A stretch of DNA of 64,000 nucleotides, from the NCBI RefSeq assembly GCF_001941485.1, contig NZ_CP009247.1, positions 1,984,001 to 2,048,000 of the forward strand, given 5' to 3'. Numbering within the stretch: position 1 is the first letter of the stretch; each line of letters starts with the position of its first letter. The notes below the pieces were generated by a model. The model did not search any database. It was not told the origin of the DNA and worked only from the letters and a program-made list of their open reading frames with translations. This document shows positions 1 through 62,005 of the stretch, one piece after another. The DNA comes from Corynebacterium frankenforstense DSM 45800. Lineage in GTDB: Bacteria; Actinomycetota; Actinomycetes; Mycobacteriales; Mycobacteriaceae. The translations under genes and the position numbers were made by a program.

Positions 1-2575
1 CCGCCGGTAGCCCGGAGACGTCGAGCGCGCCGTCGTCGACGAGCTCGCGGATGCGCGGGGCGACGGTCTGCGCGAAGGACCGGGTCTGCCGCGCCAGCCG
101 CGCGATCTGCGGCGAAGCCGACAGCTCGGTGGACTCGTGCTCGAGCATGACGGTGCAGGACGGCTCCACACCGACGACGGTCAGCCCCTCATCGAGGTAG
201 GGCTCGAGCACCTCGGCGCTGTGCTCGAGGACCTTCTTGGCCACGGTCAGCTGCCCCGTCGAGTGCCAGGTCAGCCCGCAGCACACGAATCCGTCGGGGA
301 TGATGACGTCGAAGCCGAGTGCCTCGAGCACGCGCACCGCCGCCTGCGCCGGCGCGGTGCCGAGTTGGTTGTTGAAGGAGTCCGGCCACAGCACCACCGT
401 CTCGCGGTCGTCGCTTGACGACGCCGCGTCCGCCCGCCGTCGCTGCCACCGTTGCAGGTTTTCGTGGGCGAAGTGGATCAGCGGACGGGTGGTGTCCAGG
501 CCCCCGGCGCGCGCCATGAGCTTGGAGACGACCGGGGCGTGCATGGCCCAGTCGACCATGCGCGGCACCAGGGGGATGCGGTGGGCGACTGCACCGAGCA
601 CCGGCAGCCAGCCCATCAGGTAGTGGGCCATGGGCCGGATGCGGTGGCGGTAGTGGTGGTGGAGGAACTCGGCCTTGTAGGTGGCCATGTCGACGTTGAC
701 GGGGCACTCGGAGGCGCAGGCCTTGCAGGACAGGCACAGATCGAGGGCCTCCTCGACCTCCTTGGAGCGCACGCCGTCGGGCAGTGCCTCGCCGCGGTAC
801 ATCTCGGCGAGCAGGCGGGCACGCCCACGGGTGGAGTGGACCTCGTCGCCCGTGATCTGGAAGGAGGGGCACATCGCGTCGTCCTCGGAGCGGCAGGCGG
901 ACACACCGACGCACCGGTTGATCGCGGAGAGGAAGTCACCCTTGTCCGAGGTGAAGCGGTGCACCGGGGTGATGTCCAGGCCGCGCTGGGCGGGGTCCAT
1001 GCGCAGGCCCTCGGTGACCTCGTCCGGATCGACGAGCACACCGGGGTTGCACACGCCCTCGGGGTCGAAGATCGCCTTGAACTCGGCGAAGAGGTCGAGC
1101 ATCTCCTTCGAGTACATCTCCGGCAGCAGGCTGGAGCGGGCGCGGCCGTCGCCGTGCTCGCCGGAGAGCGAGCCGCCGAAGGAGGAGACCAGCTGCGCGG
1201 CCTCGTGCATGAAGTCACGGAAGGCGGCGACCCCCGCGGGCGTCGTGAAGTCGAAGCCGATGCGCACGTGCACGCAGCCCTCGCCGAAGTGGCCGAAGGG
1301 GATGCCGCGCAGGTGGTAACGGTCCATCAGGGCGTAGAGACCGCGCAGGTAGTCGGCGAGGTTCTCCGGCGGCACCGCGGAGTCCTCCCAGTTGGGCCAG
1401 GCCTCGCCGCCGTCGGGCAGGCGGGTGACGGTGCCGGCCGAGGACTCGCGGATGCGCCACAGCCCACGCATCTCGGTCGGGTCGCTGACGACGACGTGGT
1501 CGATGGTGGCCACGCTGCCGGCGACCTGCTCGGCCGCTGCGACGGCCTCCTCGACGGTGTCGCCGCCGGTCTCGCAGTAGAGCCAGCCACCGGCGGCCAG
1601 CCCCTTGCGCTCGCCGGGCAGGTTCTTGCCCGCGTTGGCCTGGCCCTGCTTGGAGCGCAGGGCGGCCAGCAGGTCGCCACCCATGCCCTCGATGGTGGCC
1701 ACGCCGGGCTGGCGCAGCACAGGCGCGGCGGCAGCGGCGTCATAGACGGTCTCGAAGGCCAGCACGGCCAGCGCGCGGACCTTGGGCACCGGCACCAGGC
1801 GGACCTTCATCTTCGTGATCACGCCGAGGGTGCCCTCGGAGCCAGCGATCGCACGGGCGGGATTCTCGGCGAGGTGATGCAGCCCGTAGCCGGAGACCTG
1901 GCGCGGGAAGCGGCCCAACTCGGTGTCGATCAGCTCGGCGTTGTCGGCGTAAAGCGCGCGTAGCTTCGCGTCGATCTCCTCGTCGGAGCAGCCCTCGGGC
2001 CCGACGGTGACGGTGCGACCGTCGGCCAGCATCAGTTCCAGCGAGATCAGGTTGTCGGCCGCGGTGCCCCAGGCCACCGAGTGGGAGCCGCAGGCGTTGT
2101 TGGCCACCATGCCGCCGATGGTGCAGCGCGAGTGGGTCGACGGGTCCGGCCCGTAGGTCAGGCCGTGGGGCGCGGCGGCGCGGCGCAGCGCGTCGCAGAC
2201 CACGCCGGGCTCGACGACGGCGGTGCGCGCCTCCGCGTCGAGCTCGAGGATGCGGTTGAAGTGCGCCGAAGTGTCGACGACGACGCCCTCGCCGATCGCA
2301 TTGGCCGCGACCGAGGAGCCGCCGCCGCGGCCGGTGACCGACCAACCGCGCTCGCGGGCCACAGCGAGCACGTCGCGCAGATCCCCGACGCCGTGCGGCT
2401 CGGCGACAGCGGCGGGAATACGCCGGAAGAGCCCGGCGTCTGAGGAGTAGGCCACCCGCGTGGTCATGTCAGTGCGGAGTCCGGTGCGCGAACCCGCACC
2501 GTATACCGCGGGGTCGACGCGGTGGAACCGCAGGGTGTCTCCGGGCGTGGTCTTAGGAGTGGTCTGGTGCGGCAT
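1..2575 (-). CDS. FAD-binding and Fe-S oxidoreductase (D-lactate/2-hydroxyacid dehydrogenase type), 3' end outside window
   Basis: About 858 residues are visible; the C-terminus lies left of base 1. The N-terminal half is an FAD_binding_4 domain (GRGGGSSVAANAIG, then GPDPSTHSRCTIGGMVANNA and GSEGTLGVITK) followed by an FAD-oxidase C-terminal domain. The second half has a ferredoxin-like cluster (CLSCKACASECP) and a CCG domain (FVCCGLTWHSTGQ). This is the long GlcD/Dld-plus-GlpC architecture that oxidises D-lactate or a similar 2-hydroxyacid and passes electrons through Fe-S centres, probably to quinone at the membrane. The ATG at 2575 follows GGAAGGGATTC, a good ribosome site. It is divergent from a GntR/FCD regulator and shares an operator-like sequence with a permease gene, suggesting a small acid-utilisation regulon. 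The substrate is inferred only. Confidence 0.88.
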   Translation of the reverse strand, partial: MPHQTTPKTTPGDTLRFHRVDPAVYGAGSRTGLRTDMTTRVAYSSDAGLFRRIPAAVAEPHGVGDLRDVLAVARERGWSVTGRGGGSSVAANAIGEGVVVDTSAHFNRILELDAEARTAVVEPGVVCDALRRAAAPHGLTYGPDPSTHSRCTIGGMVANNACGSHSVAWGTAADNLISLELMLADGRTVTVGPEGCSDEEIDAKLRALYADNAELIDTELGRFPRQVSGYGLHHLAENPARAIAGSEGTLGVITKMKVRLVPVPKVRALAVLAFETVYDAAAAAPVLRQPGVATIEGMGGDLLAALRSKQGQANAGKNLPGERKGLAAGGWLYCETGGDTVEEAVAAAEQVAGSVATIDHVVVSDPTEMRGLWRIRESSAGTVTRLPDGGEAWPNWEDSAVPPENLADYLRGLYALMDRYHLRGIPFGHFGEGCVHVRIGFDFTTPAGVAAFRDFMHEAAQLVSSFGGSLSGEHGDGRARSSLLPEMYSKEMLDLFAEFKAIFDPEGVCNPGVLVDPDEVTEGLRMDPAQRGLDITPVHRFTSDKGDFLSAINRCVGVSACRSEDDAMCPSFQITGDEVHSTRGRARLLAEMYRGEALPDGVRSKEVEEALDLCLSCKACASECPVNVDMATYKAEFLHHHYRHRIRPMAHYLMGWLPVLGAVAHRIPLVPRMVDWAMHAPVVSKLMARAGGLDTTRPLIHFAHENLQRWQRRRADAASSSDDRETVVLWPDSFNNQLGTAPAQAAVRVLEALGFDVIIPDGFVCCGLTWHSTGQLTVAKKVLEHSAEVLEPYLDEGLTVVGVEPSCTVMLEHESTELSASPQIARLARQTRSFAQTVAPRIRELVDDGALDVSGLPA

Positions 2576-2620
2576 GAATCCCTTCCTCTGGCGCCTGCCT
2601 CGGATGCTCCGTTCCGGCAA

Positions 2621-2635
2621 CATGTTACACGCTAC
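2621..2635. promoter_or_regulatory. Putative GntR operator in the oxidase/regulator divergent gap
   Basis: catgttacacgctac; 13 of 15 bases are identical to catgttacgtgctac at 5154-5168 in front of the permease gene. The GT-T-AC core fits the GTNxAC core common to FCD-family operators. It lies about 45 bases before the oxidase start and just upstream of the regulator's -10 hexamer, so it could control both. Confidence 0.55.
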
Positions 2636-2650
2636 TGTCCATAGTCCGTG

Positions 2651-2656
2651 CATAAT
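2651..2656 (+). promoter_or_regulatory. -10 hexamer of the GntR gene, leaderless
   Basis: CATAAT ends six bases before ATG 2663, placing the transcript start at or next to the start codon. Confidence 0.5.
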
Positions 2657-2662
2657 GGGGCC

Positions 2663-7286: not shown

Positions 7287-8120
7287 ATGCACGGTATTGA
7301 TGCTCGACGGGTGCGCACCCGCCACCTCGCCCAGGCCAAGGCCCAGGGCACAAAGATCACTGCCCTGACCAGTTATGACGCCCTGACGGCCGCCATCTTC
7401 GACGAGGCGGGCATCGACCTGCTCCTCGTCGGCGACTCGGCGGCCAACGTCGTACTCGGCCAGGACTCCACGCTGGGGATCACGCTCGACGAGATGATCA
7501 CCATGGCGCGCGCCGTCGCCGGCGCCGCGAAGCGCGCGTTCGTCGTCTGCGACCTGCCCTTCGGCAGCTACGAGGAGTCCGACGCCCAGGCCGTCGCCTC
7601 CTCGGTGCGCCTGATGAAGGAGGCCGGCGTCGCCGCCGTCAAGATCGAGGGCGGCGTCGAGATGGCCCCGACCATCCGCCGCATCGTCGACGCCGGCATC
7701 CCCGTCGTCGCCCACATCGGCTACACCCCGCAGTCCGAGCACGCCCTCGGCGGCCACGTCGTGCAGGGACGCGGCGACGCCGCCGAGCGGTTGCTTGCCG
7801 ACGCCGCGGCGGTCGCCGAGGCGGGTGCGTGCGCCGTGGTGCTGGAGATGGTGCCCGCCGAGCTCGCCGCCCGGGTGACCGCCGAGGTCGCCGTCCCGAC
7901 CATCGGCATCGGCGCCGGCGCCGGCTGCGACGGCCAGATCCTGGTCTGGACCGACGCCTTCGGCCTGGGCCGCGGCCGCGCCCCGCGCTTCGTGCGCCGC
8001 TTCGCGCAGCTCGGCGAGGACCTGCTCGCCGCCGCGCGCACCTACGCCGACGAGGTGGAGGCCGGTACCTTCCCGGCCGCCGCCGAGAGCTTCGGGGATT
8101 CGAAGGAGCGGGACAAGTGA
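7287..8120 (+). CDS. panB: 3-methyl-2-oxobutanoate hydroxymethyltransferase
   Basis: 277 residues, the usual length. It converts 2-oxoisovalerate plus methylene-tetrahydrofolate to ketopantoate, the first committed step of pantothenate synthesis, in the cytosol. Visible family signatures are [19 protein letters not shown], the metal-binding [11 protein letters not shown] and [11 protein letters not shown] segments, KIEGG, and [18 protein letters not shown]. It is translated from a leaderless transcript and its stop overlaps the panC start (GTGA), so the two are translationally coupled. Confidence 0.97.
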
Positions 8121-11389: not shown

Positions 11390-12301
11390 ATGAGCAAGAT
11401 CGTCGTCGTCGGTTCGATCAACGCGGACCTCAACACCCGCGTCGCCCGCCACCCGCAGCCCGGCGAGACGCTGATGGCCACCGGCGGCGGGATCACCGCC
11501 GGCGGCAAGGGCGCCAACCAGGCCGTCGCCGCCGCCCGCCTCGGCGCGGAGGTGGCGATGGTCGGCGCCGTGGGCCGCGACGCCTACGCCGCGCCGGCCA
11601 CCGAGCTGCTCCGCGACGCCGGGGTGGACCTGGCCGCCGTCGCCGAGACCGACGAGACGACCGGCCTGGCCGTCATCACCGTCGACGCCGCCGGCGAGAA
11701 CACCATCCTCGTCGTCGCCGGCGCGAACGGCACCGTCGACGCCGCCGCGGTGGAAAAGGCCCGCGACCTGATCGCCGGTGCCGAGGTGGTGCTGCTGCAG
11801 GGCGAGATCCCCGCCGAGGGCTTCGCCGCGGCCGTCGCGATCGCCCGGGAGGCGGGCGTGCGCGTGGTGGTCAACCTGGCGCCGGTCATCGAGGTCGACC
11901 GCGACGCGCTGCTGGCCGCCGACCCGCTGATGGCCAACGAGCACGAGGCCGGCCTCATCCTCGACCAGCTCGGCGCGGGCATCGACTCCGAGGACCCCGG
12001 GCGCCTGGCCGCCGCGCTGCTCGAGGTGGGCTTCCCCTCGGTGCTGCTCACGCTCGGCGCGGCCGGCGCGATGGTCGCCGACGCCGAGGGCACCACGGCG
12101 ATCCCCACGCCGAGGATCGAGGCGGTGGACACCGTCGGAGCGGGTGACGCCTTCGCGGGCGCCTACGTCGCCCGCCTGGTGGCCGGCGACACGATTCGCG
12201 ACGCCGCGCGCTACGCGGCCCGGGTGGGCGCCTTCGCCGCCACCGGGCGCGGCGCACAGGCCTCCTACCCGCGCGTCGGCGACGCCCTGCCGGAGGTCTA
12301 G
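11390..12301 (+). CDS. rbsK: Ribokinase
   Basis: 303 residues, PfkB family. ATP-dependent phosphorylation of D-ribose to ribose-5-phosphate. Signatures are VVVGSINADLNTRV, GGGITAGGKGANQAVAAARLGA, and near the end DTVGAGDAFAGAYVA, which carries the catalytic aspartate and anion hole. ATG 11390 has GAAGGAG nine bases upstream. No ribose transporter or LacI-type regulator is adjacent. Other PfkB sugar kinases are possible, but the N-terminal motif favours ribokinase. Confidence 0.92.
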   Translation: MSKIVVVGSINADLNTRVARHPQPGETLMATGGGITAGGKGANQAVAAARLGAEVAMVGAVGRDAYAAPATELLRDAGVDLAAVAETDETTGLAVITVDAAGENTILVVAGANGTVDAAAVEKARDLIAGAEVVLLQGEIPAEGFAAAVAIAREAGVRVVVNLAPVIEVDRDALLAADPLMANEHEAGLILDQLGAGIDSEDPGRLAAALLEVGFPSVLLTLGAAGAMVADAEGTTAIPTPRIEAVDTVGAGDAFAGAYVARLVAGDTIRDAARYAARVGAFAATGRGAQASYPRVGDALPEV

Positions 12302-15296: not shown

Positions 15297-16076
15297 ATGC
15301 CTTCCATGACCACACTTTCCGAACTCCTCGCGGACGAGTCGACGGCCCTCGACGCCCACGCGCGGGACTGGCGCGACGCCGTGCGGCAGGCCGGGGACCT
15401 CCTCGGCGCCGCCGGCGTCGCGGAGCCCGAGTACACCGACGCCATGATCGCCAGCCTCGAGGAACACGGCCCCTACATCGTGATCTCCCCCGGCTTCGCC
15501 TTCGCCCACGCCCGTCTCTCCGAGGCCGTCCACCGCACCGGCATCTCCTGGCTGCGCCTGGCCGAGCCCGTCGAGTTCGGCCACGCGAAGAACGACCCCG
15601 TCAGCCTCGTCGTGGCGCTCGCCGCCCGCGACGACAAGGCGCACACCACCGCCATGGCCCAGCTGGCGAAGTTGCTCGGAGATTCCCGACGCCGCGCGGC
15701 GCTCGACGCCGCGCGCACCCCCGCCGAGCTGCGCGAGGTGCTCGACGCCGCGGCAGGCGCGGCGTCGTCAAGCACGCAGGAGGGCACCACCCGCAACAAG
15801 ATCCTCACCGTCTGCGGCAACGGGCTGGGTACCTCGCTCTTCCTGAAGAACACCCTCGAGGAGGTGCTCGACCGCTGGGGCTGGGCGCCCTTCATCACCG
15901 TCGAGGCCACCGACACCATCTCCGCGAAGGGCAAGGCCAAGGAGGCCGACCTCGTGCTGACCTCCGGCGAGATCGCCCGCACCCTCGGCGACGTGGGCAT
16001 CCCCGTCCACGTCATCGGGGACTTCACCTCCACCACCGAGATCGACGCCGCGCTGCGCGAGCTCTACGACATCTAG
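15297..16076 (+). CDS. Ascorbate-type PTS fused EIIA-EIIB protein
   Basis: 259 residues. Residues 1-150 are a UlaC-like EIIA domain with the phosphorylatable H71 in GFAFAHARL. After a linker (GAASSSTQEG) residues 167-259 are a UlaB-like EIIB domain with C173 in TVCGNGLGTS. In E. coli these are separate proteins. Phosphate passes from HPr to H71, to C173, and to sugar entering through EIIC, encoded 15 bases downstream. ATG 15297 has GGAGA eight bases upstream. The linker DNA carries one exact copy of the 13-mer GCGGCGTCGTCAA. Confidence 0.92.
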   Translation: MPSMTTLSELLADESTALDAHARDWRDAVRQAGDLLGAAGVAEPEYTDAMIASLEEHGPYIVISPGFAFAHARLSEAVHRTGISWLRLAEPVEFGHAKNDPVSLVVALAARDDKAHTTAMAQLAKLLGDSRRRAALDAARTPAELREVLDAAAGAASSSTQEGTTRNKILTVCGNGLGTSLFLKNTLEEVLDRWGWAPFITVEATDTISAKGKAKEADLVLTSGEIARTLGDVGIPVHVIGDFTSTTEIDAALRELYDI

Positions 16077-18517: not shown

Positions 18518-19939
18518 TTACTTCCGGATCGTGATCTGCCAGCCCGCGTCGCCCTTGGCGTGGAAGTCGGTGACCTCGTGGCCGTTCTCCGCGGCCCACC
18601 GCGGGATCGTCTCCGTGCCCTGGGTGCAGTCGAAGTCGATGACCAACTCCTCGCCGGCGTCCAGCGAGTCGAGCACGTCCTTGGTCTCGATCAGGGGGAA
18701 CGGGCACACGGCGCCCATCTGGTCGAGGAAGTAGCGGCCCTGCCCGATCTCGCGGGCCTTGGCCTTCTTCTTGCCGGCCACCGTGACCAGCCCCGTGGCC
18801 ACCTGGAAGTTGCCGGCGACGGCCGCACCGTCGCCGCCCCGGCCACCGGCCGGGCGCTGCGGCGCGCCGACGGTGACGGACTCGGCGACGCCGTGCGACG
18901 CGGCGTCGTCAAGCACCTCGTCCTCGGCGGAGGTGGGCGCCTCGGCGGGCTTGAGCCACAGCTTGGCCGCAACGCCCACGCCGAGGGCCATGAACAGCAG
19001 CGCGACCCAGCCCTGGTAGCTGAACAGGGAGGTCTGGACCATGCCGTTGCCCACGGTGCAGCCGCCGGCCAGCGAGGCACCGACGCCCATGCCGACGCCG
19101 CCGACCACGGAGCGCACCGCCTGGGTGGCGTCGGGCAGGCGGACGCGGAATTCGCCGGTCGCGCGCGCCGCGATCCAGGAGCCGACGAGGATGCCGAGCA
19201 CCAGCATCACGCCCCAGTCCATGCGCTCGGCGTCGCCGGTGACCGTCCAGTTGGCCAGGTTGGCGCTCGGGGTCGTGATGCCCAGGCCGTCGTTGCGGCC
19301 GGTGGCGGCCGAGAGCGGCCAGGCGATCACGCCGAGCACGCCGACGGCCACCGCGGCGGCGTAGACGTGCAGCGGGCGCTTCCAGCGCGACCCTCCGAGG
19401 CTCGCGACCTTCGGCGCGGCGGCCTCCCGCTGCAGGAAGCGGTTCGCGGCCCAGCCGGTGAACAGGGCGAAGGGGATCGCGAACCACCACAGCGAGACGC
19501 CGAAGGTGCGCGGCAGGTCGGTCCAGCCGGTGTCCCAGGAGCGCAGGAACTCGTTGAAGCCGGTCAGCGGGCCGGTCTTCATCGCGGCGGCGGACAGGCA
19601 GTACATGATCAGCGCGATCCACGAGCCGACCAGGCCCTCGCCCGAGCGGTACCAGGTGCCCGAGGCGCAGCCGCCGGCGAGCACGATGGCCAGGCCGAAG
19701 ATGAAGCCGCCGATGACGACCGCGGCGGGCTTGAAGGTGGTCGCCTCGGGCGCGATGACGCCGGCGCCGGTCAGCGCGGCGATGCCGACGGCGTGGACGG
19801 CGATGACGATGAACAGCGCGACGAGGGTACGCCAGGAGCGCTGCAGGAAGAGGTCACGCAGCATGCCGGTGACGCAGAAGCGTCCGCGCTGCATGACGAT
19901 GCCGAGCACGGCGCCGAGCGCCAGGCCGGTGACGATCAT
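18518..19939 (-). CDS. YeeE/YedE (TsuA-type) thiosulfate transporter fused to TusA sulfur-carrier domain
   Basis: 473 residues. Residues 1-330 are a YeeE/YedE membrane domain with cysteines C22 (RGRFC), C91 (GGCASG) and C294 (GGCTVGNG). These correspond to the essential channel cysteines known in Spirochaeta TsuA, which relay thiosulfate across the membrane. After a long Ala/Gly-rich cytosolic linker, residues 398-473 are a TusA/SirA domain with the sulfur-accepting C412 in VCPFP. Transporter and carrier are usually separate neighbouring genes (yeeE, yeeD). ATG 19939 has GAGGAG five bases upstream; longer in-frame starts reach through the promoter. Two McbR-like sites lie 77-115 bases upstream, predicting repression when methionine or cysteine is plentiful. 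Confidence 0.92.
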   Translation of the reverse strand: MIVTGLALGAVLGIVMQRGRFCVTGMLRDLFLQRSWRTLVALFIVIAVHAVGIAALTGAGVIAPEATTFKPAAVVIGGFIFGLAIVLAGGCASGTWYRSGEGLVGSWIALIMYCLSAAAMKTGPLTGFNEFLRSWDTGWTDLPRTFGVSLWWFAIPFALFTGWAANRFLQREAAAPKVASLGGSRWKRPLHVYAAAVAVGVLGVIAWPLSAATGRNDGLGITTPSANLANWTVTGDAERMDWGVMLVLGILVGSWIAARATGEFRVRLPDATQAVRSVVGGVGMGVGASLAGGCTVGNGMVQTSLFSYQGWVALLFMALGVGVAAKLWLKPAEAPTSAEDEVLDDAASHGVAESVTVGAPQRPAGGRGGDGAAVAGNFQVATGLVTVAGKKKAKAREIGQGRYFLDQMGAVCPFPLIETKDVLDSLDAGEELVIDFDCTQGTETIPRWAAENGHEVTDFHAKGDAGWQITIRK

Positions 19940-21875: not shown

Positions 21876-22115
21876 CCGCGTTCAATTGACGACGTCCCGG
21901 TGGTCACCGGCGCGCGCGTGCGTGGGGCGTCTGGCGGGGGCGGGGCGGCGCAGCCGCCCCGGGACGGGGACGCCGACGGGGAGGGGCGCAGCCCCGGGCG
22001 GGGCGCGGGGGCGTCGGAAATCTGGGGGCCGGGGACAGGTCGCGCAGACAGGGACGTGCGACGCGCGGGACGCCGCAAAGTCGGGGACGCGGCGGAAGAG
22101 ACGGGCACTGACATG

Positions 22116-33694: not shown

Positions 33695-34077
33695 CTCAGT
33701 CGGTCCAGGAGGTCCTCGCGGCCGAACATACGCGCGGTGTCGACGGGGCTGGGGGTGCCCGCGGTGGGCGAGGCGCCGGCGTCGAGAAGCGCGTCGACGA
33801 CGTCGTCCTCCTTCTTGAAGATGGCGCCGGCCAGCGGCGCCTGGCCGCGGTCGTTGAGCTTGTCGACGTCCGCGCCGCGTTCCACGAGCGCGCGCACCAG
33901 TGCGGCCCGGCCCGCGTAGGCGGCGAGCATGAGCAGCGTGTTGCCGTCCTGGTTCGCCAGGTCGACGGGCACGCCCGCGTCGACGTAGGCCAGGAGCGTC
34001 TCGTCGCCCTCGCGGGCCATGTCGAACAGGCGGCCGGCCAGTTCCTGGACGTCTTCGGGGAGCTCGGGGTTCGTCAT
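33691..34077 (-). CDS. Ankyrin-repeat protein
   Basis: 128 residues with about three ankyrin repeats (DGNTLLMLAAYAGRAALVRALVERGADVDKLN is the clearest, around residues 45-78). It is a protein-binding scaffold with no catalytic motif. ATG 34077 lies seven bases after a TAGAGT hexamer, implying leaderless translation; an in-frame GTG at 34086 falls inside that hexamer and is less likely. It overlaps the exporter start by four bases. Confidence 0.88.
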   Translation of the reverse strand: MTNPELPEDVQELAGRLFDMAREGDETLLAYVDAGVPVDLANQDGNTLLMLAAYAGRAALVRALVERGADVDKLNDRGQAPLAGAIFKKEDDVVDALLDAGASPTAGTPSPVDTARMFGREDLLDRLR

Positions 34078-34084
34078 GGCAGAC

Positions 34085-34090
34085 ACTCTA
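34085..34090 (-). promoter_or_regulatory. -10 hexamer of the ankyrin gene, leaderless
   Basis: TAGAGT on the minus strand, seven bases before ATG 34077; it includes the holA stop codon. Confidence 0.45.
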
Positions 34091-35032
34091 ACCGGCCAGC
34101 CGGGCGATGCGGCGCACGGCGTTCTCGACGGCGTACTCGGCCTGGCCGCCCTGTCCCTTGACCTCCGCGTCGAGCTCGGCCATGAGGATCACGGCGCGCG
34201 AGACGGCCTCGCCGGACCAGCGGCGGGCCACGGGCAGCGTCTTCTTGATCACGAAGGGGTGGGCGCCGATCTCGCGGGCCAGGGCGTTCTGGTCGGCCCG
34301 GCCCCGCGTGGAGTAGAGGCGGGCGATCATGCCGACCTTGTTGCTCAGCGCCGAGGCGATGGGCACCGGGCTCGTGCCGAGCTGGAGGGCCCGGCGCACG
34401 GCGGCCACGGCGCGGGAGGTCTGGCCGGAGACGGCCCAGTCGGCGATGTCGAAGTTGGAGACCTCGGCGACGCCGGCGTAGTAGGCGCGGACCACGGCGG
34501 TGGTCACGGGCCCGTCGGCGTCCTCGACGAGCTGCTCGACCGCGATGGCGAGCTCCCGCGGGTCCGAGCCGACCCCCTCGAGGACCGCGCGCACCACGTC
34601 GGGGGCGACCTGGGCGCCGCGCTCGCGGAACTCGCGGGTGACCCAGCCCTGCAGGTCGCGCTGCCGGATCTCCTCGGCGGGCCAGACGTGCGCGATCTTG
34701 GCGAGCTTCTCGGCCATCTTCTTCGTGCGGCCCTTGCCGGTGTGCTCGACGACGAGGTAGATGCCGGGGCCGGGGTCGACGGCGGCCTTGAGGATCTGCT
34801 CGGCGGCCTCGTTTCCGGCCTTGTCGGCGTCGTGGAGGACCACGATGCGGTCGTCGCCGAAGAGCGACGGGGAGAGGACCTCGAGCAGTTCGGCGGCGGT
34901 GATGTCCCCCGCGCGCATGTCGGTGACGGTGATCCCCTCCCGGCCGGCGCGGATCTGGTCGACGATCGCCGCCCGGGCGCGTTCCGCCAGGAACGTCTCC
35001 GGCCCCAGGATCAGGTGCACCTGCTCGTCCAT
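34088..35032 (-). CDS. holA: DNA polymerase III subunit delta
   Basis: 314 residues. The clamp-loader subunit that opens the beta clamp. VHLILGPETFLAERA at the N-terminus, a Rossmann-like domain with GIYLVVEHTGKGR, and the C-terminal collar domain (NFDIADWAVSGQTSRAVAAVRR) fit the family. The start is uncertain: ATG 35032 has GGTGG close upstream, and ATG 35041 adds three residues. It normally neighbours comEC; here a foreign-looking gene lies between them. Confidence 0.93.
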   Translation of the reverse strand: MDEQVHLILGPETFLAERARAAIVDQIRAGREGITVTDMRAGDITAAELLEVLSPSLFGDDRIVVLHDADKAGNEAAEQILKAAVDPGPGIYLVVEHTGKGRTKKMAEKLAKIAHVWPAEEIRQRDLQGWVTREFRERGAQVAPDVVRAVLEGVGSDPRELAIAVEQLVEDADGPVTTAVVRAYYAGVAEVSNFDIADWAVSGQTSRAVAAVRRALQLGTSPVPIASALSNKVGMIARLYSTRGRADQNALAREIGAHPFVIKKTLPVARRWSGEAVSRAVILMAELDAEVKGQGGQAEYAVENAVRRIARLAG

Positions 35033-35092
35033 GGCCACCATCGTGCCACACGGCCCCGCGCGGCCCGACCGCAGGCGGATCACGGGCGGGTT

Positions 35093-35275: not shown

Positions 35276-36013
35276 GTGAACCGCGCCCAAGTCGTGTCGT
35301 CGCTTCGGCACCTGCTCAAGATCGTGCAGCAGCTCGACCTGACCGACCAGAAGATGGCGGAGATCGAGCAGGAACGGACGAAGCTGCGGTACCGCCCCAT
35401 CCGTAAGAGGCTGTCCCGCAGGGCCTGGCTCCTCATCCCGCTCGTGCTGGGTATCTGCTCCGCGGTGTTCAACTGGCGCAGCCCCTCGGCGGTGATCTCC
35501 CGACTGCTCTTCGGCGAGACCGCCATCGACGAGATGACCTTCGGCTGGCTGGCCTATCTGGCGTTCGACTACGTCCTGGTGCTCGCACTCCTCTACGTCG
35601 GCGTGTTCCTCCTCGATCTCGTGCTCGCCCGGGTGAACAACGCCGCCAACCGGGGAAAGTTCCGGAAGAAGACGGAGGAGCTCCACCACGTCGCGGGCGT
35701 CCAGGGGGCGCTCAGGAACAAGCTCCGCACGGACTACCTGAAACTCGGCGGCGAGAACTTCTACCCGGACGACTACATGGCGGCCTCCATGCTCACCATC
35801 GTCATCCGGAACATCGAGTCGATGCGTGCCGACTCCGTCGGCGCCGCGATCAGGTTGATGCACCAGGACGAGCAGTCCCAGCAGATGCTGGCGGCGCTGA
35901 AGCGGACCGAGCGCCAGCAGCAGCAGATCATGCGGAACCAGCGGGCCGCCGAGCGGGCCCGCAACTTCGACAACTTCATGCTCGAGCAGTCCTTCTGGGA
36001 CTCGCGGCGCTGA
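35276..36013 (+). CDS. Unknown two-helix membrane protein with coiled-coil ends
   Basis: 245 residues, no recognised family. The N-terminal 45 residues are charged and heptad-like (HLLKIVQQLDLTDQKMAEIEQ). Two hydrophobic segments follow (about 50-66 and 88-120), and the last 50 residues are Gln/Arg-rich coiled coil (LKRTERQQQQIMRNQRAAERARN). GTG 35276 has TTGGAG upstream. Base composition looks less GC-rich than the neighbours by eye. It interrupts the usual comEC-holA order and its last 38 bases overlap the end of comEC tail to tail, suggesting a late insertion. Confidence 0.75.
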   Translation: MNRAQVVSSLRHLLKIVQQLDLTDQKMAEIEQERTKLRYRPIRKRLSRRAWLLIPLVLGICSAVFNWRSPSAVISRLLFGETAIDEMTFGWLAYLAFDYVLVLALLYVGVFLLDLVLARVNNAANRGKFRKKTEELHHVAGVQGALRNKLRTDYLKLGGENFYPDDYMAASMLTIVIRNIESMRADSVGAAIRLMHQDEQSQQMLAALKRTERQQQQIMRNQRAAERARNFDNFMLEQSFWDSRR

Positions 36014-37367
36014 CGGCCCGGCGGCGCCGGGTCAGGAGCGCGAAGACGACCCACCCGTAGCAAACCACCACCCACAGGGGGCCGGCGGCCACGGTGGCCA
36101 GGGGCAGCTCGGCCAGTGCGACGGCGACGCGGTGAATCCACCAGGTGCACGGTTCCAGCAGGAGGAGGGGGACGGCCTCGAGGCCACCGGGCAGGACGGC
36201 GAGTCCCGCGGCGATAAGCCCGAGGACGGTCACGGGGGCCACGGCGGGTGCGACGAGCACGTTGGCGGCCACGGAGACCAGCGAGACCCGGCCGGCCATG
36301 CCCGCGATCAGGGGCATGGTCACCACGTCGGCGGCCAGGGCCACGCACGCGGCACGGGCGAGGGCGTCGGGGAGCCAGGGGCGCGCCAGCGCCCGGTAGA
36401 GCGCCGGGAAGACGGCGACGATGCCCGCGGTGGCGGCCGCCGAGAGCGCGAAGCCCCACTGCGCGGCCAGCCCGGGGTCGACGAGCAGCAGCACGAGGAC
36501 GGCCAGGCAGAGCCCGTGGGCGGGCTCCAGGCGCGCGGAGCCGATCACGGCGAGCAGGCCCACCGAGCCGGTCACCGCGGCGCGCAGGACGGACGGTTCG
36601 GTGCCGACGAGGGCGACGAAGACGACGAGCGCGGCGAAGGCGGCGCCGACCTGCACGCGCGGGCCCAGACCGAGCAGCCGCACGATGAGGAAGGCCGCGG
36701 CGGTCACGACGGTGACGTTGGCCCCGGAGACCGCGGTGAGGTGCGTCAGGCCGGTGTCGATGTAGGCCTGCTCCTCGGCCGGGGCCATCAGCGAGGTGTC
36801 GCCGAGGACCATGCCGGGCACCAGCCCGCGCGAGGACTCCCCCACGTGGTCCTCAGCGGCCTGTCGCAGCGCCGCGCGGACCCCGGCGACCCAGCCGGCG
36901 TGGCCGGTGGGCTCGCCGGTCTCGAGGGAGCCTGCGGTGCCGGTGTAGCCGGCCAGGCCGGGCGACTCGTCGGCCCGCCAGCGCACGTCCGCGGTGACCG
37001 GGGTGCCCGCGGGCAGGTGGGGAAGCTCCTCGTCGCGCAGGAAGACCGGCAGCGGGGCGGGGCGGTCGGGCACCTGCACGCGCAGCAGCCAGAGCCCGGG
37101 GTCGAGCCGGCGGGCCGGGGCGGCCAGGGTGCCGGTGATCTCGGCCGACGGGCGCACCGCGACGCGCGCCGCGCTCACGGCGGTGACCACGGTCTGGGCG
37201 GCGCCGGCCGCGGCCATGAGAATCGCCTGCCCCGGCGCGCGCAGGTACCACGCGGCACCGGCGGCCAGGGCGGTCACAAGGAGCGCGGGCCACCAGGTGC
37301 CCAGGAGGATGACGAGGGCGACCGCCCAGGCCAGGAGGGCCGCCGGGGCCAGGCGCAGCTCGCTCAC
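35976..37367 (-). CDS. comEC: ComEC/Rec2-type DNA uptake channel, no metallo-hydrolase domain
   Basis: 463 residues. The competence-protein membrane domain is clear: GLTHLTAVSGANVTVVTAAAF, PSVLRAAVTGSVGLLAVIG and QWGFALSAAATAGIV, plus an N-terminal OB-like region. It would conduct single-stranded DNA into the cytosol. The C-terminal metallo-beta-lactamase domain of longer homologues (total about 750 residues) is absent. It overlaps the comEA stop by four bases (ATGA). Confidence 0.93.
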   Translation of the reverse strand: MSELRLAPAALLAWAVALVILLGTWWPALLVTALAAGAAWYLRAPGQAILMAAAGAAQTVVTAVSAARVAVRPSAEITGTLAAPARRLDPGLWLLRVQVPDRPAPLPVFLRDEELPHLPAGTPVTADVRWRADESPGLAGYTGTAGSLETGEPTGHAGWVAGVRAALRQAAEDHVGESSRGLVPGMVLGDTSLMAPAEEQAYIDTGLTHLTAVSGANVTVVTAAAFLIVRLLGLGPRVQVGAAFAALVVFVALVGTEPSVLRAAVTGSVGLLAVIGSARLEPAHGLCLAVLVLLLVDPGLAAQWGFALSAAATAGIVAVFPALYRALARPWLPDALARAACVALAADVVTMPLIAGMAGRVSLVSVAANVLVAPAVAPVTVLGLIAAGLAVLPGGLEAVPLLLLEPCTWWIHRVAVALAELPLATVAAGPLWVVVCYGWVVFALLTRRRRAVSAASPRRTARA

Positions 37368-38074
37368 AGCGTGACCTGGTCGCGCAGCGCCTCGAGCTTG
37401 GCCGGGCCGATGCCGCGGACCTCGGTGAGCTGGTCGATAGAGGTGAATCCGCCGATGGACTCGCGGTGCTCGACGATGGCGGCGGCGGTGACCTCGCCGA
37501 TGCCCTGGAGGGTGGTCAGCTCGGCGGCGTCGGCGGAGTTGAGCGAGACGGCACCTCCGCCACCTGAGCCGCCGCCACCGGGCGCGGGCGCGGGCGCCGG
37601 CGCCGGTTCCGGGACCGGCTCGCCCGGGGCGGGGACGACGAGCTGCTCGCCGTCGGTGAGGCGCTGCGCGAGGTTCACCGCGCGCGGGTCGACCCCCTCG
37701 AGCGCGCCGGCGGCCTCGAGGGCGTCGGCCGCACGTGAACCCGGCGGCAGGGTGACGAGTCCCGGGTGGGCGACGTGGCCGACGACGGAGACCACCAGGT
37801 CACCGCTCCCCTCGCTCCCGGCGTCGCCGGGAGCGGCCGTGGCGGAGAGGGGTGGGACGGGCACACCGGAGGCGGGCGCGGCGTCGGAAATCTCTTTCTC
37901 GGGGCCGGAGGAGACGATCAACCAGACGACGACGGCTACGGCGAGGACGGCGGCGACGAGTGCGCCCTGGCGGGCGGTGACGCGCAGGCGCGGCGCCGGG
38001 TAGGCGACGCGCATCAGGTCTTCCTCGCCGGTGGGCCGGGCCAGCTCGCCGAGGAGGTCTGCGACGGACTTCAT
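37364..38074 (-). CDS. comEA: ComEA-type DNA-binding protein
   Basis: 236 residues. One membrane anchor (about residues 38-56), a SLBB-like segment (VSVVGHVAHPGLVTLPPGSRAADALEAAG), a Pro/Gly linker, and a C-terminal helix-hairpin-helix pair (LNSADAAELTTLQGIGEVTAAAIVEHR, then GIGPAKLEALRDQV) that binds incoming double-stranded DNA outside the membrane. ATG 38074 lies seven bases after a TAGCGT hexamer, so it is probably leaderless. It is coupled to comEC. Confidence 0.94.
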   Translation of the reverse strand: MKSVADLLGELARPTGEEDLMRVAYPAPRLRVTARQGALVAAVLAVAVVVWLIVSSGPEKEISDAAPASGVPVPPLSATAAPGDAGSEGSGDLVVSVVGHVAHPGLVTLPPGSRAADALEAAGALEGVDPRAVNLAQRLTDGEQLVVPAPGEPVPEPAPAPAPAPGGGGSGGGGAVSLNSADAAELTTLQGIGEVTAAAIVEHRESIGGFTSIDQLTEVRGIGPAKLEALRDQVTL

Positions 38075-38081
38075 GGCCGTG

Positions 38082-38087
38082 ACGCTA
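38082..38087 (-). promoter_or_regulatory. -10 hexamer of comEA, leaderless
   Basis: TAGCGT on the minus strand, seven bases before ATG 38074. Confidence 0.45.
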
Positions 38088-38127
38088 GGCGGCCGGACGG
38101 TCACGCGGCGTGCGGGAGAAGGGCGGT

Positions 38128-41697: not shown

Positions 41698-42999
41698 TCA
41701 GGGCCGGGTCTGGCCGTCCCCCTCGAGGATCCACTTGGTGCTGGTCAACTCCGGCAGGGCCATCGGCCCGCGGGCGTGCAGCTTCTGGGTGGAGATGCCG
41801 ATCTCGGCGCCCATGTCGTACTGCTCGCCGTCGGTGAAGGCCGTCGAGGCGTTGACCATGACGGCCGCGGCGTCGACCTCGGCGGTGAAGCGCTCGCAGA
41901 CCCGGCGCGACTCGGCGCAGACGGCCTCGGTGTGCCCGGTGGTCCAGCGCGCGATGTGCGCGATGGCCCCGTCCACGCCGTCGACGACGGCGCAAGCGAT
42001 GTCCATCGACAGGTACTCCTCGCCCCAGTCGTGCTCGTCGGCGGCGACGACGTCGCGGGCGCCGAAGGCGGCCAGCTCGTCGACGTCGCCGTGCACGGTG
42101 ACCCCCGCCTCCTGGAGGGCGCGCACCACGGCGAGCCGCGCGGCGTCGTCAAGCGCGGAGTCGAGCAGGACGGTCTCGGTGGCGTTGCACACCGACGGCC
42201 GGCGCGTCTTGCCGTTGAGGACGATCGCGATGGCCTGCTCGAGGTCGGCCGAGGCGTCGATGTAGACGTGGCAGTTGCCGGTGCCGGTCTCGATGGCGGG
42301 CACCGTGGCACCCAGGACGACGGTCTCGATGAGCTTCGCGCCGCCGCGCGGGATGACGACGTCGACGAGCCCGCGGGCGGTGATCAGGTCGCGCACGGAA
42401 CCGTGGGACTCGCACGGCAGCAGGTGGACGGCCTCGCGCGGCAGGCCGGAGGCCTCGAGGGCGTCGCGCAGCACCGCGACCAGGGCCTCGTTGGAGCGCC
42501 GGGCCGAGCGCGAGCCGCGCAGGAGCGCGACGTTGCCGGCCTTGAGGGCGAGCCCGAAGGCGTCGACGGTGACGTTGGGGCGGGCCTCGTAGACCATGCC
42601 CATCACGCCGAGCGGGACGCGCACGCGGCGCATGCGGATGCCGTTGCCCATCACGTGGCCGCCGAGGACCTCGCCGACGGGGTCGGTCAGCGCGGCGACC
42701 TGGCGCAGGCCGGCGGCCATGCCGGCCACGCGCGCGGCGTCGAGGCTCAGGCGGTCGATGAGCGACCCGCTCATCCCGGCGGCGCGACCGGCCTCGACGT
42801 CGGCGCCGTTGGCGGCGAGCACCTCGTCGGTGCGCGCCTCGAGCGCGTCGGCGGCGGCGTGCAGCGCGGCGTTCTTCCGGTCGCTGCTCAGCCGGGCGAT
42901 CGCGGGGGCGACGGCGCGCGCGGCGCGGGCGGCGGCGAGCACCTCCCCGCGTTCGCGGCGGCGCTCGGGGGTCTCGTCGTGGGTCTCGTCGGCGGTCAT
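41698..42999 (-). CDS. proA: Glutamate-5-semialdehyde dehydrogenase (gamma-glutamyl phosphate reductase)
   Basis: 433 residues. The second step of proline synthesis: NADPH reduction of gamma-glutamyl phosphate. [27 protein letters not shown] and the catalytic cysteine in [15 protein letters not shown] are typical. ATG 42999 lies eight bases after TACACT, so it is leaderless and has its own promoter. It is the last of the proB, dehydrogenase, dehydrogenase, proA run. One exact copy of GCGGCGTCGTCAA (42140-42152) lies inside the gene. Confidence 0.97.
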
Positions 43000-48544: not shown

Positions 48545-51500
48545 CTAGCCGCGCCGACGCGTCGCGCGACGGCGTCCGCGGCGCCGCCCGTGCTGCGCGC
48601 CGGACTCCCGGCGGGGCTCCTCGCGGGCCGGCTCGGCCTTGCGCTTCGGCTCAGCCCTGTGGTCCGGCTCGCGCTCCGTACGACGCGTGGTGCGGCGCAC
48701 GGCCCGGCGGCCACGGCGACCGCGACGCCCGCGGACGACCTTCGTCTCCGTGGACGAGGCGTCCTCGGCGGAGTCCCCGGCGTCGGAGTCGGCGTCGGAG
48801 TCCGAGCCGCGCCCGGCGCCGTGCCCGGGCTCGCGGTGCTCCGGCTCGGGCTCCTCGGTGAAGTCCTCCCGGCGCGGCCGGTGGTCCGAGCGCGAGTTGC
48901 CGCGGGTGCGGCGCCTGCGGCGCGGGGACTTCTCGAACTCCTCGAGGGCGGTCTCGTAGTCCGCGCCCGAGGGCTCGTCCGGGTCCTCGGCGTCGGCCTG
49001 GCTCAGGGCGTGGTCGACGATGCGGGTGATCTCCTCTACGCCCGCGTCGCCGCGCTCCTCGGTCCGGTCCGCGGAACGCTCGCGACCCCGGCCCCGACCG
49101 CGCCCACGGCGGCCGCGCCGGCCGCGGCGGGCCCGCGAACCGCGGCCCTCGCGCTCCTCGTGCGAGTCGTCCGAGCCGCGCGAGTCCCGCTCCGGCGCCT
49201 CGTCCCCGGCGGCCTCGTCGCCGCCGGCCACGACGCTGGCGGCCAGCTTCTCGAGCTCCTCGTCGGAGGCACGCCCCGCGCCGCGCCCACGGCGCCGGCG
49301 CGACGGACGCCCGTCGTGCGCGGCGTCGTCAATCTCCTTGGTCTCCTTGCGGCGCGGGTCGCCGGAGCCGTGGCCCTTGTCGCGGTCGTGGCGGCGACGG
49401 TCGCGCTCCTCGTGGCGGCGCGCCTTGTCGTCCTCCTCGACCGGGTCCTCGTGCAGGATGATGCCGCGGCCGTCACAGCACTCGCAGCGCGTGGAGAAGG
49501 TCTCCAGCAGGCCGGTGCCCAGGCGCTTGCGGGTCAGCTGGACCAGGCCCAGCGAGGTGACCTCGGAGACCTGGTGGCGGGTGCGGTCGCGGCCGAGCGC
49601 CTCGGTCAGGCGGCGCAGCACCAGGTCGCGGTTCTCCGGCAGCACCATGTCGATGAAGTCGACGACGATCATGCCGCCGATGTCGCGCAGCCGCAGCTGG
49701 CGGACGATCTCCTCGGCGGCCTCGAGGTTGTTGCGGGTGACCGTCTCCTCGAGGTTGCCGCCGGAGCCGGTGAAGCGGCCGGTGTTGACGTCGATGACGG
49801 TCATCGCCTCGGTGCGGTCGATGACCAGCGAGCCGCCGGAGGGCAGGAAGACCACGCGGCCGAGCGCCTTCTGCAGCTGCTCGTCGATGCGGTGCACCTC
49901 GAAGGCGTCGCGGTTGCCGTGCTCGCGGCGGTCGAAGCGCTCGAGGCGGTCCTCGAGGTCCGGGGCCACCGAGTGCACGTAGTTCTGCACGGTGTTCCAG
50001 GAGCGCTCGCCGTCGACGATCAGGCGGGTGAAGTCCTCGTTGAAGAGGTCGCGGACCACCTTGACCAGCATGTCCGGCTCCTCGTAGAGGGTCACCGGGC
50101 GCGAGCCCCTCGACTTCTTCTCCCGCTTGGCGGCCTCCTGGATGTCCTCCCACTGGCGGTGCAGGCGGCGCACGTCGGCGGCGATGGCCTCCTCGGGCAC
50201 GTTCTCCGCGGCGGTGCGGATGATGGCGCCGCCGTGCTCGGGCATGACGTGGCGCAGGATCTGCTTGAGGCGCTTGCGCTCGGGCACGGGCAGCTTGCGG
50301 GAGATGCCCGCGCTGCGCCCGCCCGGCACGTAGACGAGGAAGCGGCCGGCCAGCGAGATCTGGGTGGTCAGGCGCGCGCCCTTGTGACCGACCGGGTCCT
50401 TGGTGACCTGGACGACGATCTGGTCGCCGGACTTCAGCGCCTGCTCGATGCGGCGCGAACGCCCGCCGAGCCCCGCCGAGCGCCAGTCGACCTCGCTGGC
50501 GTAGAGCACGCCGTTGCGGCCCTGGCCGATGTCGATGAAGGCGGCCTCCATGCTCGGCAGCACGTTCTGCACGCGGCCCAGGTAGAGGTTGCCGATGATC
50601 GTCGACTGCGTCTCCGAGGTCACGAAGTGCTCGACGAGCATCTCGTCCTCGAGCACGCCGACCTGCACGACGGTGCCCGGGTGGTCGCTGCGGGTGCGCT
50701 CGCGCACGACCATCTCGCGCTTGACGGACTCGCGGCGCGCCAGGAATTCCTCCTCGGTGAGCACGTGGCGGCGCTGGCGGGCCTCCTCGCGACGCTCGCT
50801 GCGGCGGCGGCGCTTCGCCTCGAGGCGCGTGGAGCCCTTCAGGGCCACCGGCTCGTCGGGCAGCTCGCCCTCGGAGCCGTCGAGCGCGTGCTCGACGGCG
50901 CTCTCCGCGTGGTGGGCGTGGGCGTCCGCGTCCGTGTCGGCGTCGTCGTGGTCGTCGTTGTCGCTTGCCGACGTCGCGCGGCGTCCGCGACCGCGGCCCG
51001 TGCCGCGGCGGCCGCGGCGACGGCGCGAGGAGCGGCGGGAACGCGGCGCGTCGTCGTTCTGCCCGGCGTCGTCCTCTGCGTCGGGGTTGTCCTCGGCGTC
51101 CGAGTCCGAGTCGTTGTCGGCGGAGTTGTCGGAGTTGTCGTCCGAGCTGTCGTTTTCGGAGTCGGCGGAGTTTTTGTCGGCGGAGTTGCTGTCCGCCTCC
51201 TCGCCCGGGGAGAGGAAGACCGGAGAGTCCGCGTCGCGGCCGGCGGCCTTGTCCTTGAGCTCGTCGTCGACCTTGCGCTCGATCTGGTTGATCTCGTTGG
51301 CGACGTTGTTCTCCACCTGGACGCGGATGTTCGCCAGCTCGGCGTCGTCCCGGTCGTCGGTGGTCTCGGTGGCCTCGTCGGCGGTGTCCCCGGTCTTCCC
51401 GGAGTCGGCGACCTGGCCCTCGGTCCGCTCCTCGGCGGCCTCGGCCTTCTCGGTCTTCTCGGCCTTCTCGGACTTCTCCGGCTTCGTGGTCTTCTTGGCC

Positions 51501-57453: not shown

Positions 57454-59105
57454 GCGGGCTCCTTTCCGAAGAGGGTGCGGGCCTCACCGGCGGTGACCAC
57501 CGAGCCGGTGACGATGACGCCGGAGCCGGACTGGATGTCGGCGTCCTCGGCCAGTTCGAAGGCCAACTCTACCGCCCCGGGCAGGGCCGCGGCGACGTGC
57601 ACGCGCTCCTCGCCGAAGATCTCGCGGGCGATCTCCGCCAGCGACTCGGCGTCCAGCGCGCGCGGCGAGGTGTTGGCCGTGCACACGATCTCGCTGAGGT
57701 GCGGCTCGAGCTCGGTGAGGATCCCGCGGACGTCCTTGTCCGCCAGGATGCCGACGACACCGATGAGGCGGCGGAAGTCGAAGTCGCGCTCGAGGGCCGC
57801 GCCCAGGGCACGCGCGCCGTGCGGGTTGTGCGCGGCGTCGATGAAGGTCGTCGGCGTCGAGCGCACCCGCTCGAGGCGACCCGGCGAGGTGACCTGGGCG
57901 AAGCCGCGGCGCACCGTGTCCTGGTCGAGCTGGCGGCCGGCGCCGGCGCCGAAGAACGCCTCGACGGCGGCCAGGGCGACCGCGGCGTTGCGCGCCTGGT
58001 GCTCGCCGGACAGGGGCAGGAAGATGTCGGTGTACTCGCCGGCCAGGCCCCGGATGGTCAGGGTCTGCCCGCCGACGGCCACGCCGGCGGACTCCACGCC
58101 GAACTCGACGCCCGCGCGGGCGACGGCGGCGTCGACCTCGACGGTGCGGCGCAGCAGCACCTCCATCGCCTCGGGCTCCTGCTCGGCGAGGACCGCGATG
58201 TTGTCCGGCGGGGTCAGCAGGTCGTCGGCGTCCCAGCGGGACTTGATGATCCCGGCCTTCTCCCCGGCGATCTCGGCGACGGTGTCGCCGAGGTACTGGG
58301 TGTGGTCCAGGCCGACGGGCATGACGACGGCGACCTGGGCGGAGACGACGTTGGTGGCGTCCCAGCGCCCGCCCATGCCGACCTCGACGACGCCGACGTC
58401 CACCGGCGCGTCCGCGAAGGCCGCGTAGGCCATGGCGGTGAGCACCTCGAACTTGCTCATCGGCACCCCGAAGCGCTCGTCGACCATCTCGACGTAGGGT
58501 TCGATCTCCCGCCACGTCTCCACGTAGCGGCGCGGGTGCACGGGCACGCCGTCGATGGCGATGCGCTCGGTGACCTGCTGCAGGTGCGGGCTGGTGGTGC
58601 GCCCGGTGCGGCGGTGGAAGGCGCGCAGCAGCGACTCGACCATGCGCACCACGGAGGTCTTGCCGTTGGTGCCGGCGACGAGGATGACCGGGTAGGCGTT
58701 CTGGGGCGAGCCCAGCAGGTCCATCAGGGCCTCGACGCGCTCGAGGGTCGGGTCGATCTTCGTCTCCGGCCAGCGCCGGTTGAGCTCGGCCTCGACCTCG
58801 GCCAGGGCGGCGAGGTCCTCCTCGGTGACGGGTTCCTCGATGGCGACGTCCTCGGCGGGACCGGCCTCCTCGGCCATGTCGATCGGCAGGCTCAGGCCCG
58901 TCTCGTCGAGGTGCACACCGGCCGAGGCGTCGGCCCCGGCGCCGAGGTTCTCCTCGGCCTCCTCCAGGCGGTGCAGCTCCTCGGCGGTCAGCGCCTCTCC
59001 GGCGAGCATCGCCTCGGCGAGCTCGGCGTCGCTGCGCTGACGGGCGCCGTCGGCGCCGGGCGTCGAGCCCGACGCGGCGTCGTCAATCGAACCGTCGTCT
59101 GCCAT
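57450..59105 (-). CDS. folC: Folylpolyglutamate synthase/dihydrofolate synthase with acidic N-terminal extension
   Basis: 551 residues. It adds glutamate to dihydropteroate and folates. The Mur-ligase-like core has the ATP loop VILVAGTNGKTSVVRM, HLQQVTERIAIDG and VEVGMGGRWDATNVV. The recognisable core starts near residue 98 (DLAALAEVEAELNRRWPE). Before it lie about 95 residues rich in Asp, Glu, Ala and Gly, longer than in most relatives. ATG 59105 overlaps the valS stop by one base (TGATG); later in-frame starts would remove the extension. One exact 13-mer repeat lies at 59074-59086. Confidence 0.95.
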   Translation of the reverse strand: MADDGSIDDAASGSTPGADGARQRSDAELAEAMLAGEALTAEELHRLEEAEENLGAGADASAGVHLDETGLSLPIDMAEEAGPAEDVAIEEPVTEEDLAALAEVEAELNRRWPETKIDPTLERVEALMDLLGSPQNAYPVILVAGTNGKTSVVRMVESLLRAFHRRTGRTTSPHLQQVTERIAIDGVPVHPRRYVETWREIEPYVEMVDERFGVPMSKFEVLTAMAYAAFADAPVDVGVVEVGMGGRWDATNVVSAQVAVVMPVGLDHTQYLGDTVAEIAGEKAGIIKSRWDADDLLTPPDNIAVLAEQEPEAMEVLLRRTVEVDAAVARAGVEFGVESAGVAVGGQTLTIRGLAGEYTDIFLPLSGEHQARNAAVALAAVEAFFGAGAGRQLDQDTVRRGFAQVTSPGRLERVRSTPTTFIDAAHNPHGARALGAALERDFDFRRLIGVVGILADKDVRGILTELEPHLSEIVCTANTSPRALDAESLAEIAREIFGEERVHVAAALPGAVELAFELAEDADIQSGSGVIVTGSVVTAGEARTLFGKEPA

Positions 59106-61819: not shown

Positions 61820-61827
61820 AGCGACCA

Positions 61828-61833
61828 ATCATA
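61828..61833 (-). promoter_or_regulatory. -10 hexamer of valS, leaderless
   Basis: TATGAT on the minus strand, eight bases before GTG 61819. A TGACCCCG/CGGGGTCA hairpin (61915-61953) lies further upstream in the divergent gap. Confidence 0.55.
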
Positions 61834-62005
61834 GCGGCCGGGTGTGCGCGTTAACGCGCCGGTCGGCGCCGTCCGGCGTGCGCGTGTGGCCCGTGCTTGA
61901 CGACGCCCGCGTATGACCCCGGCCACTGCGCACGTGCGGCACGTTCGGGGTCACGTAAATACCACAGGTGACTTTCCCGCGCTCGGCGCCCACCCGGAAC
62001 GGGGG

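Follow-up and report, generated by a model that had tools for sequence, protein, structure and literature searches.

The window, a stretch of 64,000 nt from Corynebacterium frankenforstense DSM 45800 (bases 1984001-2048000 of a single-contig genome of 2,604,152 bp, here G000), carries a short dispersed repeat that we assess below as a candidate DNA uptake sequence (DUS). The repeat was noticed as a 13-mer in an original prediction made from the letters of the window alone, and all six exact copies it listed were recovered, at 415 on the minus strand and at 15759, 18900, 42140, 49320, and 59074 on the plus strand. Across 42 genomic contexts, the 13-mer lengthens to CGCGGCGTCGTCAAKC, with no strong shared flank in these contexts beyond ~16 bp. 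Its non-palindromic core, GRCGTCGNNAAKC, has 16 copies in the window, and the sites are given below with their surroundings as judged from Pfam domains and from heuristic gene calls (the first missed the YeeE-TusA gene; the second used a codon-usage caller).

413..428, minus strand: CGCGGCGTCGTCAAGC, containing the exact 13-mer at 415-427, in an FAD-oxidase/Fe-S protein gene
7793..7808, minus strand: CGCGGCGTCGGCAAGC, in a Pantoate_transf (panB-type) gene (Pfam)
12193..12208, minus strand: CGCGGCGTCGCGAATC, in a PfkB-type gene (Pfam)
15681..15696, minus strand: CGCGGCGTCGGGAATC, in the EIIA-EIIB gene, between domains or at a domain edge, 80 bp away from the site at 15758, which has the opposite orientation
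15758..15773, plus strand: CGCGGCGTCGTCAAGC, with the exact 13-mer at 15759-15771, in the EIIA-EIIB linker of a phosphotransferase system gene, between domains or at a domain edge (Pfam)
18899..18914, plus strand: CGCGGCGTCGTCAAGC, with the exact 13-mer at 18900-18912, in the linker between Sulf_transp (YeeE) and TusA (Pfam)
22007..22022, plus strand: GGGGGCGTCGGAAATC, between called genes in both gene calls
28243..28258, minus strand: CGCGACGTCGTCAAGC, intergenic in the first gene call and within a called gene in the codon-usage call
33775..33790, plus strand: GGCGTCGAGAAGC, a core site whose upstream bases depart from the consensus, within an ankyrin-repeat gene
33858..33873, minus strand: GACGTCGACAAGC, likewise a core site whose upstream bases depart from the consensus, in the same ankyrin-repeat gene as the 33775 site, 80 bp apart
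37877..37892, plus strand: CGCGGCGTCGGAAATC, within comEA
42139..42154, plus strand: CGCGGCGTCGTCAAGC, with the exact 13-mer at 42140-42152, in a gene whose product has an Aldedh domain (Pfam)
49319..49334, plus strand: CGCGGCGTCGTCAATC, with the exact 13-mer at 49320-49332, in the RNase E/G gene, within the C-terminal tail that follows the domain
50963..50978, minus strand: CGCGACGTCGGCAAGC, in the RNase E/G gene
59073..59088, plus strand: CGCGGCGTCGTCAATC, with the exact 13-mer at 59074-59086, at the N-terminal end of a gene of Mur-ligase type (Pfam), which we take to be FolC (a name that does not come from Pfam)
61895..61910, minus strand: GCGGGCGTCGTCAAGC, between called genes in both gene calls

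The placing of several copies in interdomain linkers and tails, as first proposed, agrees with the Pfam domain boundaries, and the copy at 61897, said to lie in a gap, belongs to the site at 61895, outside the called genes in both gene calls. The near copies were recovered in part: those at 7793, 22010, 37880, and 50963 fit the wider motif and one at 46527 is a one-mismatch form, but that at 53245 was not recovered. The 9-mer TTGACGACG, which had been reported beyond the exact copies, occurs 10 times in the window against a shuffle mean of 0.58, including a copy at 9699 absent from the earlier list. An excess of the 13-mer over chance had been claimed as well, and matches with at most one mismatch indeed lie at 12 places in the window (shuffle mean 0.43, maximum 3).

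In the whole 2.6 Mb genome, the exact 13-mer is present in 121 copies (67 forward, 54 reverse) and its reversed pattern in none, while the core is present in 728 copies (360 and 368 by strand; ~2.8 sites per 10 kb) against 11 copies of its reversed control. A genome sample comprising the window and 20 further stretches (464 kb, 17.8% of the genome) was used for the finer analyses. The top ranks of its over-represented 10- to 12-mers are forms of the motif, with GGCGTCGTCAAT occurring 33 times where an order-4 Markov model expects 0.13. Copies in the sample depart from CGCGGCGTCGTCAAKC at few positions only, which we read as the degenerate consensus CGSGRCGTCGKMAAKY; one-mismatch forms are concentrated at few positions, as in a recognition site, and not spread evenly as by decay. 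The checks of spacing and strand bias suggested with the original prediction gave random spacing for all 121 exact copies (coefficient of variation 0.91; random range 0.83-1.18) and a balance of strands, neither being restricted to one part of the chromosome and no switch occurring between halves over ten bins, with ori and dif not mapped and the GC skew weak. Among 138 sites, seven neighbouring pairs lie within 150 bp of each other in mixed orientations, so a terminator role is not established. At G000:C1:1858830-1858855, two exact 13-mers abut at their 3′ ends to form a perfect 26-bp inverted repeat.

Protein constraint alone, which the original prediction had judged an insufficient explanation, falls well short of the coding copies. 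The called genes of the sample hold 90 core sites, compared with a mean of 4.0 under a dicodon Markov null (40 runs, maximum 8) and 9.4 under a within-gene synonymous shuffle (100 runs, maximum 14), and an earlier, cruder gene call gave a similar result (89 sites versus 3.6 and 9.9, respectively). The synonymous shuffle also takes in the point raised about rare codons. For the exact 13-mer, the called genes hold 29 copies, against 0.3 and 1.3 under the two nulls. Counts equal to a dicodon-matched null, or copies in one reading frame only, had been named as outcomes that would refute a DNA signal. Neither was observed. The coding sites use every one of the six frames, and of 129 sites in the sample, 39 are entirely outside the called genes, which leave ~13% of the sequence uncovered (39 with both gene calls); yet the frames are filled unevenly, with 60 of the 90 coding sites in one antisense frame (45 of 89 with the first gene call).

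The window also carries three adjoining genes, at 34088-38104 on the minus strand, the first of which contains its own motif site.

37364..38104, minus strand: comEA, an SLBB and helix-hairpin-helix DNA-binding protein (Pfam HHH_3, E 8.7e-20; SLBB, 2.4e-9)
35976..37367, minus strand: comEC, the DNA channel of natural transformation (Pfam Competence, E 1.7e-48)
34088..35083, minus strand: holA, DNA polymerase III delta, the downstream neighbour of comEC (Pfam DNA_pol3_delta_C, 7e-12)

Elsewhere in the genome, dprA lies at 1,666,801 and a Tad/Flp cluster at ~295.9-301.6 kb, in which TadA was assigned by Pfam; its neighbours are presumably a CpaE-like protein, TadB- and TadC-like frames, Flp, TadE, and TadF, judging from position. 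ComEC was found in 241 of 242 Corynebacterium genomes and DprA in all 151 examined, so neither tells carriers of the motif from the rest.

The motif is not particular to one species. The 242 Corynebacterium genomes searched hold 86,517 copies of the core against 3,400 reversed-control copies. We took a genome to carry a form where it had at least 100 copies and at least five times the reversed control (as a ratio with 1 added to both), and to be CATCG-dominant where it had at least 100 copies and more CATCG than CGTCG. On this basis, 163 of the 242 carry the same form as G000 (CGTCG), which bears out the conservation in related species that had been put forward as a check, 17 carry a CATCG form, 15 are intermediate, and 47 have neither. 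In a family draw of 201 genomes, the 185 from outside the genus are mostly near control. The form GRCRTCGNNAAKC has 293-799 copies (control 10-33) in five Corynebacterium-titled genomes among the matches listed, and 51-170 copies (control 22-70) in six chosen genomes of other genera.

The CATCG form, GRCATCGNNAAKC, is a second dialect that differs by one base (CATCG in place of CGTCG), and several genomes at control level for the CGTCG form hold it instead. It reaches 147-814 copies in the 17 genomes where it is dominant and 4-109 in the others. Species also differ in their preference at the NN positions (TC/GC/GA in G000, AG in G037, AT in G080, and GC in G004). When dialect is placed on a tree of 52 TadA proteins from a chosen, non-random sample of the 242 genomes, about five changes are needed to account for the CATCG label, of which well-supported branches force at least two, indicating that the dialect changed more than once on the tree of that gene. 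Two CGTCG species, G004 and G128, sit within a nine-row TadA clade in which seven rows are CATCG. G071, which has neither main dialect, shows a strong excess of a further variant, CGCGRCGTCAT with CAAT-like bases after it (CGCGGCGTCAT occurs 18 times versus 0.19 expected in 100 kb), and no comparable motif was seen in 80-120 kb each of G014, G070, G039, and G154. Two further genomes gave words of other kinds: CCGTCACCATC occurs nine times in 80 kb of G084 (0.17 expected), a CCGTCACCATCAAT-like word that may be a further dialect or a coding repeat, and in G023, 80 kb contain 17 copies of words such as CAATGAAAGTCT, probably a CRISPR-like or tandem array.

G006 and G004, close to each other on the TadA tree, differ in dialect, with 695 CATCG and 38 CGTCG copies in G006 and 701 CGTCG and 72 CATCG copies in G004. 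Two collinear regions were compared, amounting to 220 kb per genome, of which 145 kb aligned at 80% identity. The 75 CATCG sites of G006 in these regions correspond in G004 to 32 full CGTCG sites, 3 CATCG sites, 18 non-sites, and 2 indels, with 20 unaligned. At the switch base itself, G004 has G at 37 and A at 9 of the 56 aligned G006 motif sites, and where CATCG occurs in G006 outside the motif, G004 has G at 195 of 988 positions and A at 716. The reverse direction behaves likewise: where G004 has CGTCG, G006 carries A at the switch base in 36 of 60 motif sites and in 137 of 513 cases outside the motif. Other motif positions are 71-98% identical between the two genomes, and the flanks 78% on average. 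The switch rate follows the number of matches (0, 1, 2, 3, 4) to the downstream AAKC, at 18, 24, 28, 47, and 66% in G006 and 24, 40, 42, 63, and 60% in G004; the switch tracks the motif as a whole. Aligned sites private to one genome are CATCG in 18 of 20 cases in G006 and CGTCG in 21 of 23 cases in G004.

In the sequence features tested (copy excess, use of both strands, coding and intergenic positions, dialects, and the presence of competence genes), the motif is DUS-like. Of the four readings offered by the original prediction, namely DNA uptake, chromosome organisation, recombination, and modification, uptake is the best supported, and on this sequence evidence we consider it highly probable that the repeat is a DUS of a Corynebacterium species, which biased natural transformation would maintain. 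Together, the dialects and the in-place switch point to a recognition factor that changes, with sites being replaced in a biased way, as in a known DUS; such a factor predicts a switch of this kind, which is hard to obtain from codon use, methylation decay, or selection site by site. The uptake, its receptor, and the resulting drive are what we infer. A putative DNA receptor at the surface or in the periplasm, linked to the Tad/Flp pilus and to ComEA/ComEC, would prefer fragments with approximately CGSGRCGTCGKMAAKY, so that fragments from kin would be taken up and recombined more often. The uptake bias would then multiply and conserve the motif wherever proteins tolerate it, and a change in the preference of the receptor would see sites converted in place to the new dialect.

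Extended to the genus, the uptake reading would have the Corynebacterium sequences arise independently of those in two Gram-negative families and act via a Tad/Flp pilus across the mycomembrane, with the specificity of the putative receptor switched more than once, hundreds of sites rewritten in place, and barriers to gene exchange with non-kin raised genus-wide, a scenario that we regard as likely. If true, this would be an independent actinobacterial case with dialects, and thus convergent evolution of DNA self-recognition; it would also point to natural transformation in Corynebacterium, and related species with switched dialects would allow the receptor to be mapped.

Several observations weigh against the uptake reading. 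Coding sites crowd into one antisense frame, as given above. Genomes that lack the motif also have ComEC and a TadA, which are therefore no predictors of it, and no column of a Tad protein sorts perfectly with dialect, barring an uninformative TadB set of only eight rows; the mature Flp pilin shows no difference between G004 and G006. The contrast in switching is smaller under a tighter control: at GRCATCG where the full motif is absent, G004 has G in 92 of 248 cases, and at GRCGTCG where the full motif is absent, G006 has A in 97 of 210 (versus 36 of 60 at motif sites). We read this as half-motifs switching too, because the switch rate follows the number of AAKC matches, but isoleucine-valine exchange at GGC-ATC/GTC may add to it. 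The 20 of 75 G006 sites in the unaligned third belong to a single genome pair, in which the split between aligned and unaligned sites does not discriminate an exclusion of accessory DNA. Outside the genus, genera g5 and g23 reach up to about five times the reversed control for GRCGTCGNNAAKC (142 versus 28 in one g23 genome). Either codon use or a weaker, related signal may lie behind this, and part of it may come from in-frame codons, as the reversed control does not keep codon frames. Lastly, the copies per genome in three Neisseriaceae genomes, 2245-5918 in the portion of PMC3630211 available, are above the density seen here.

A binding site for a chromosome-organising or segregation protein (of the kind of FtsK-orienting polar sequences (KOPS), Noc, matS, or Chi) would also give hundreds of short sites chromosome-wide with a defined, degenerate consensus. 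However, the balance of strands and the lack of a half-chromosome switch argue against a polar chromosome-organising or recombination signal, and a polar signal such as KOPS or Chi was rejected on strand balance and random spacing, with ori and dif not mapped. Noc and SlmA sites are palindromic; this motif is non-palindromic. Concerted change of many sites in place would, moreover, need separate selection at each, and we consider an organising role unlikely. It is far less likely that codon usage or a repeated peptide (LDDAA, IDDAA) gave rise to the repeat as a side effect, an explanation to which we give almost no credence: the crowding of coding sites into one antisense frame speaks for it, but neither null came near the observed count of coding sites, all six frames are used, nearly a third of the sites fall between called genes, and the dialects are genus-wide.

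The dialects have themselves another conceivable source, in that what separates CGTCG from CATCG is a C to T transition (on the opposite strand) at a CpG, as would follow if the motif were the target of a DNA methyltransferase and the change from CG to CA a deamination of methylated cytosine. This would leave the excess of the motif unexplained, and the nesting of the CGTCG species G004 and G128 in a mostly CATCG clade is the reverse of deamination; sites private to G006 or G004 are, besides, mostly in the resident dialect. We hold a methylation origin to be very improbable. The footprint of a mobile element (a repetitive extragenic palindrome, a miniature inverted-repeat transposable element, or an insertion target) would account for a dispersed repeat family, but it is more doubtful still, given the lack of a strong shared flank beyond ~16 bp in the 42 contexts, a motif that is non-palindromic, and sites that switch in place at aligned loci.

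To our knowledge, uptake sequences have been described only in Neisseriaceae and Pasteurellaceae. The uptake signal sequences of Pasteurellaceae are short, non-palindromic repeats in many copies on both strands, as here; the sequence and the phylum are different. Among the open-licence papers listed on uptake sequences in Corynebacterium or Actinobacteria, on Corynebacterium competence, and on the heptamer GGCGTCG with Corynebacterium, none was a report of such a repeat, nor of natural transformation in Corynebacterium. For mycobacteria, the accessible part of a 2023 paper (PMC10526031) states that no uptake sequences have been reported. A minor-pilin receptor is predicted for Pasteurellaceae in a 2025 paper (PMC12616744), and none was identified here. 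The DUS of Neisseriaceae, according to excerpts of Frye et al. 2013 (PMC3630211), is a short, non-palindromic repeat with species dialects that may differ by only one base, features that it shares with the present motif along with the presence of natural-competence genes. The Corynebacterium motif differs in its unrelated sequence, actinobacterial host, and lower density, and in having a Tad/Flp cluster where the neisserial system uses a type IV pilus, with ComP not searched for. Micrococcus luteus is also an actinobacterium with tad and comEA/comEC genes, and deletion of any gene in its two tad clusters, with one exception, abolished transformation (PMC4322843); the term 'uptake sequence' is absent from the text of that paper, and M. 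luteus was not searched for the motif.

Across the genus, a strong match to the Tad ATPase was found in 153 of 163 CGTCG carriers, against 31 of the 63 genomes compared with them, and in 170 of 180 genomes of either dialect against 15 of 47 without. Among those 47, TadA has 46-53% identity to that of G000 in 33 and 56-67% in 13, and is missing in one. Eleven motif-less species form one deep TadA clade, and the association between Tad and the motif, being tied to phylogeny, is not independent evidence. We rejected the idea that genomes lost the motif through losing the Tad pilus, as a TadA query matched 67 of 73 chosen genomes. In a set of 141 ortholog pairs, ComEA, TadC, and TadF have identities under the lower quartile. 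In-frame stops occur in tadA of G072, G184, and G228, and comEC is in two pieces in G072, G001, and G231, which suggests that tadA or comEC is broken in these species; their core copies range from 45 (G228) to 596 (G001).

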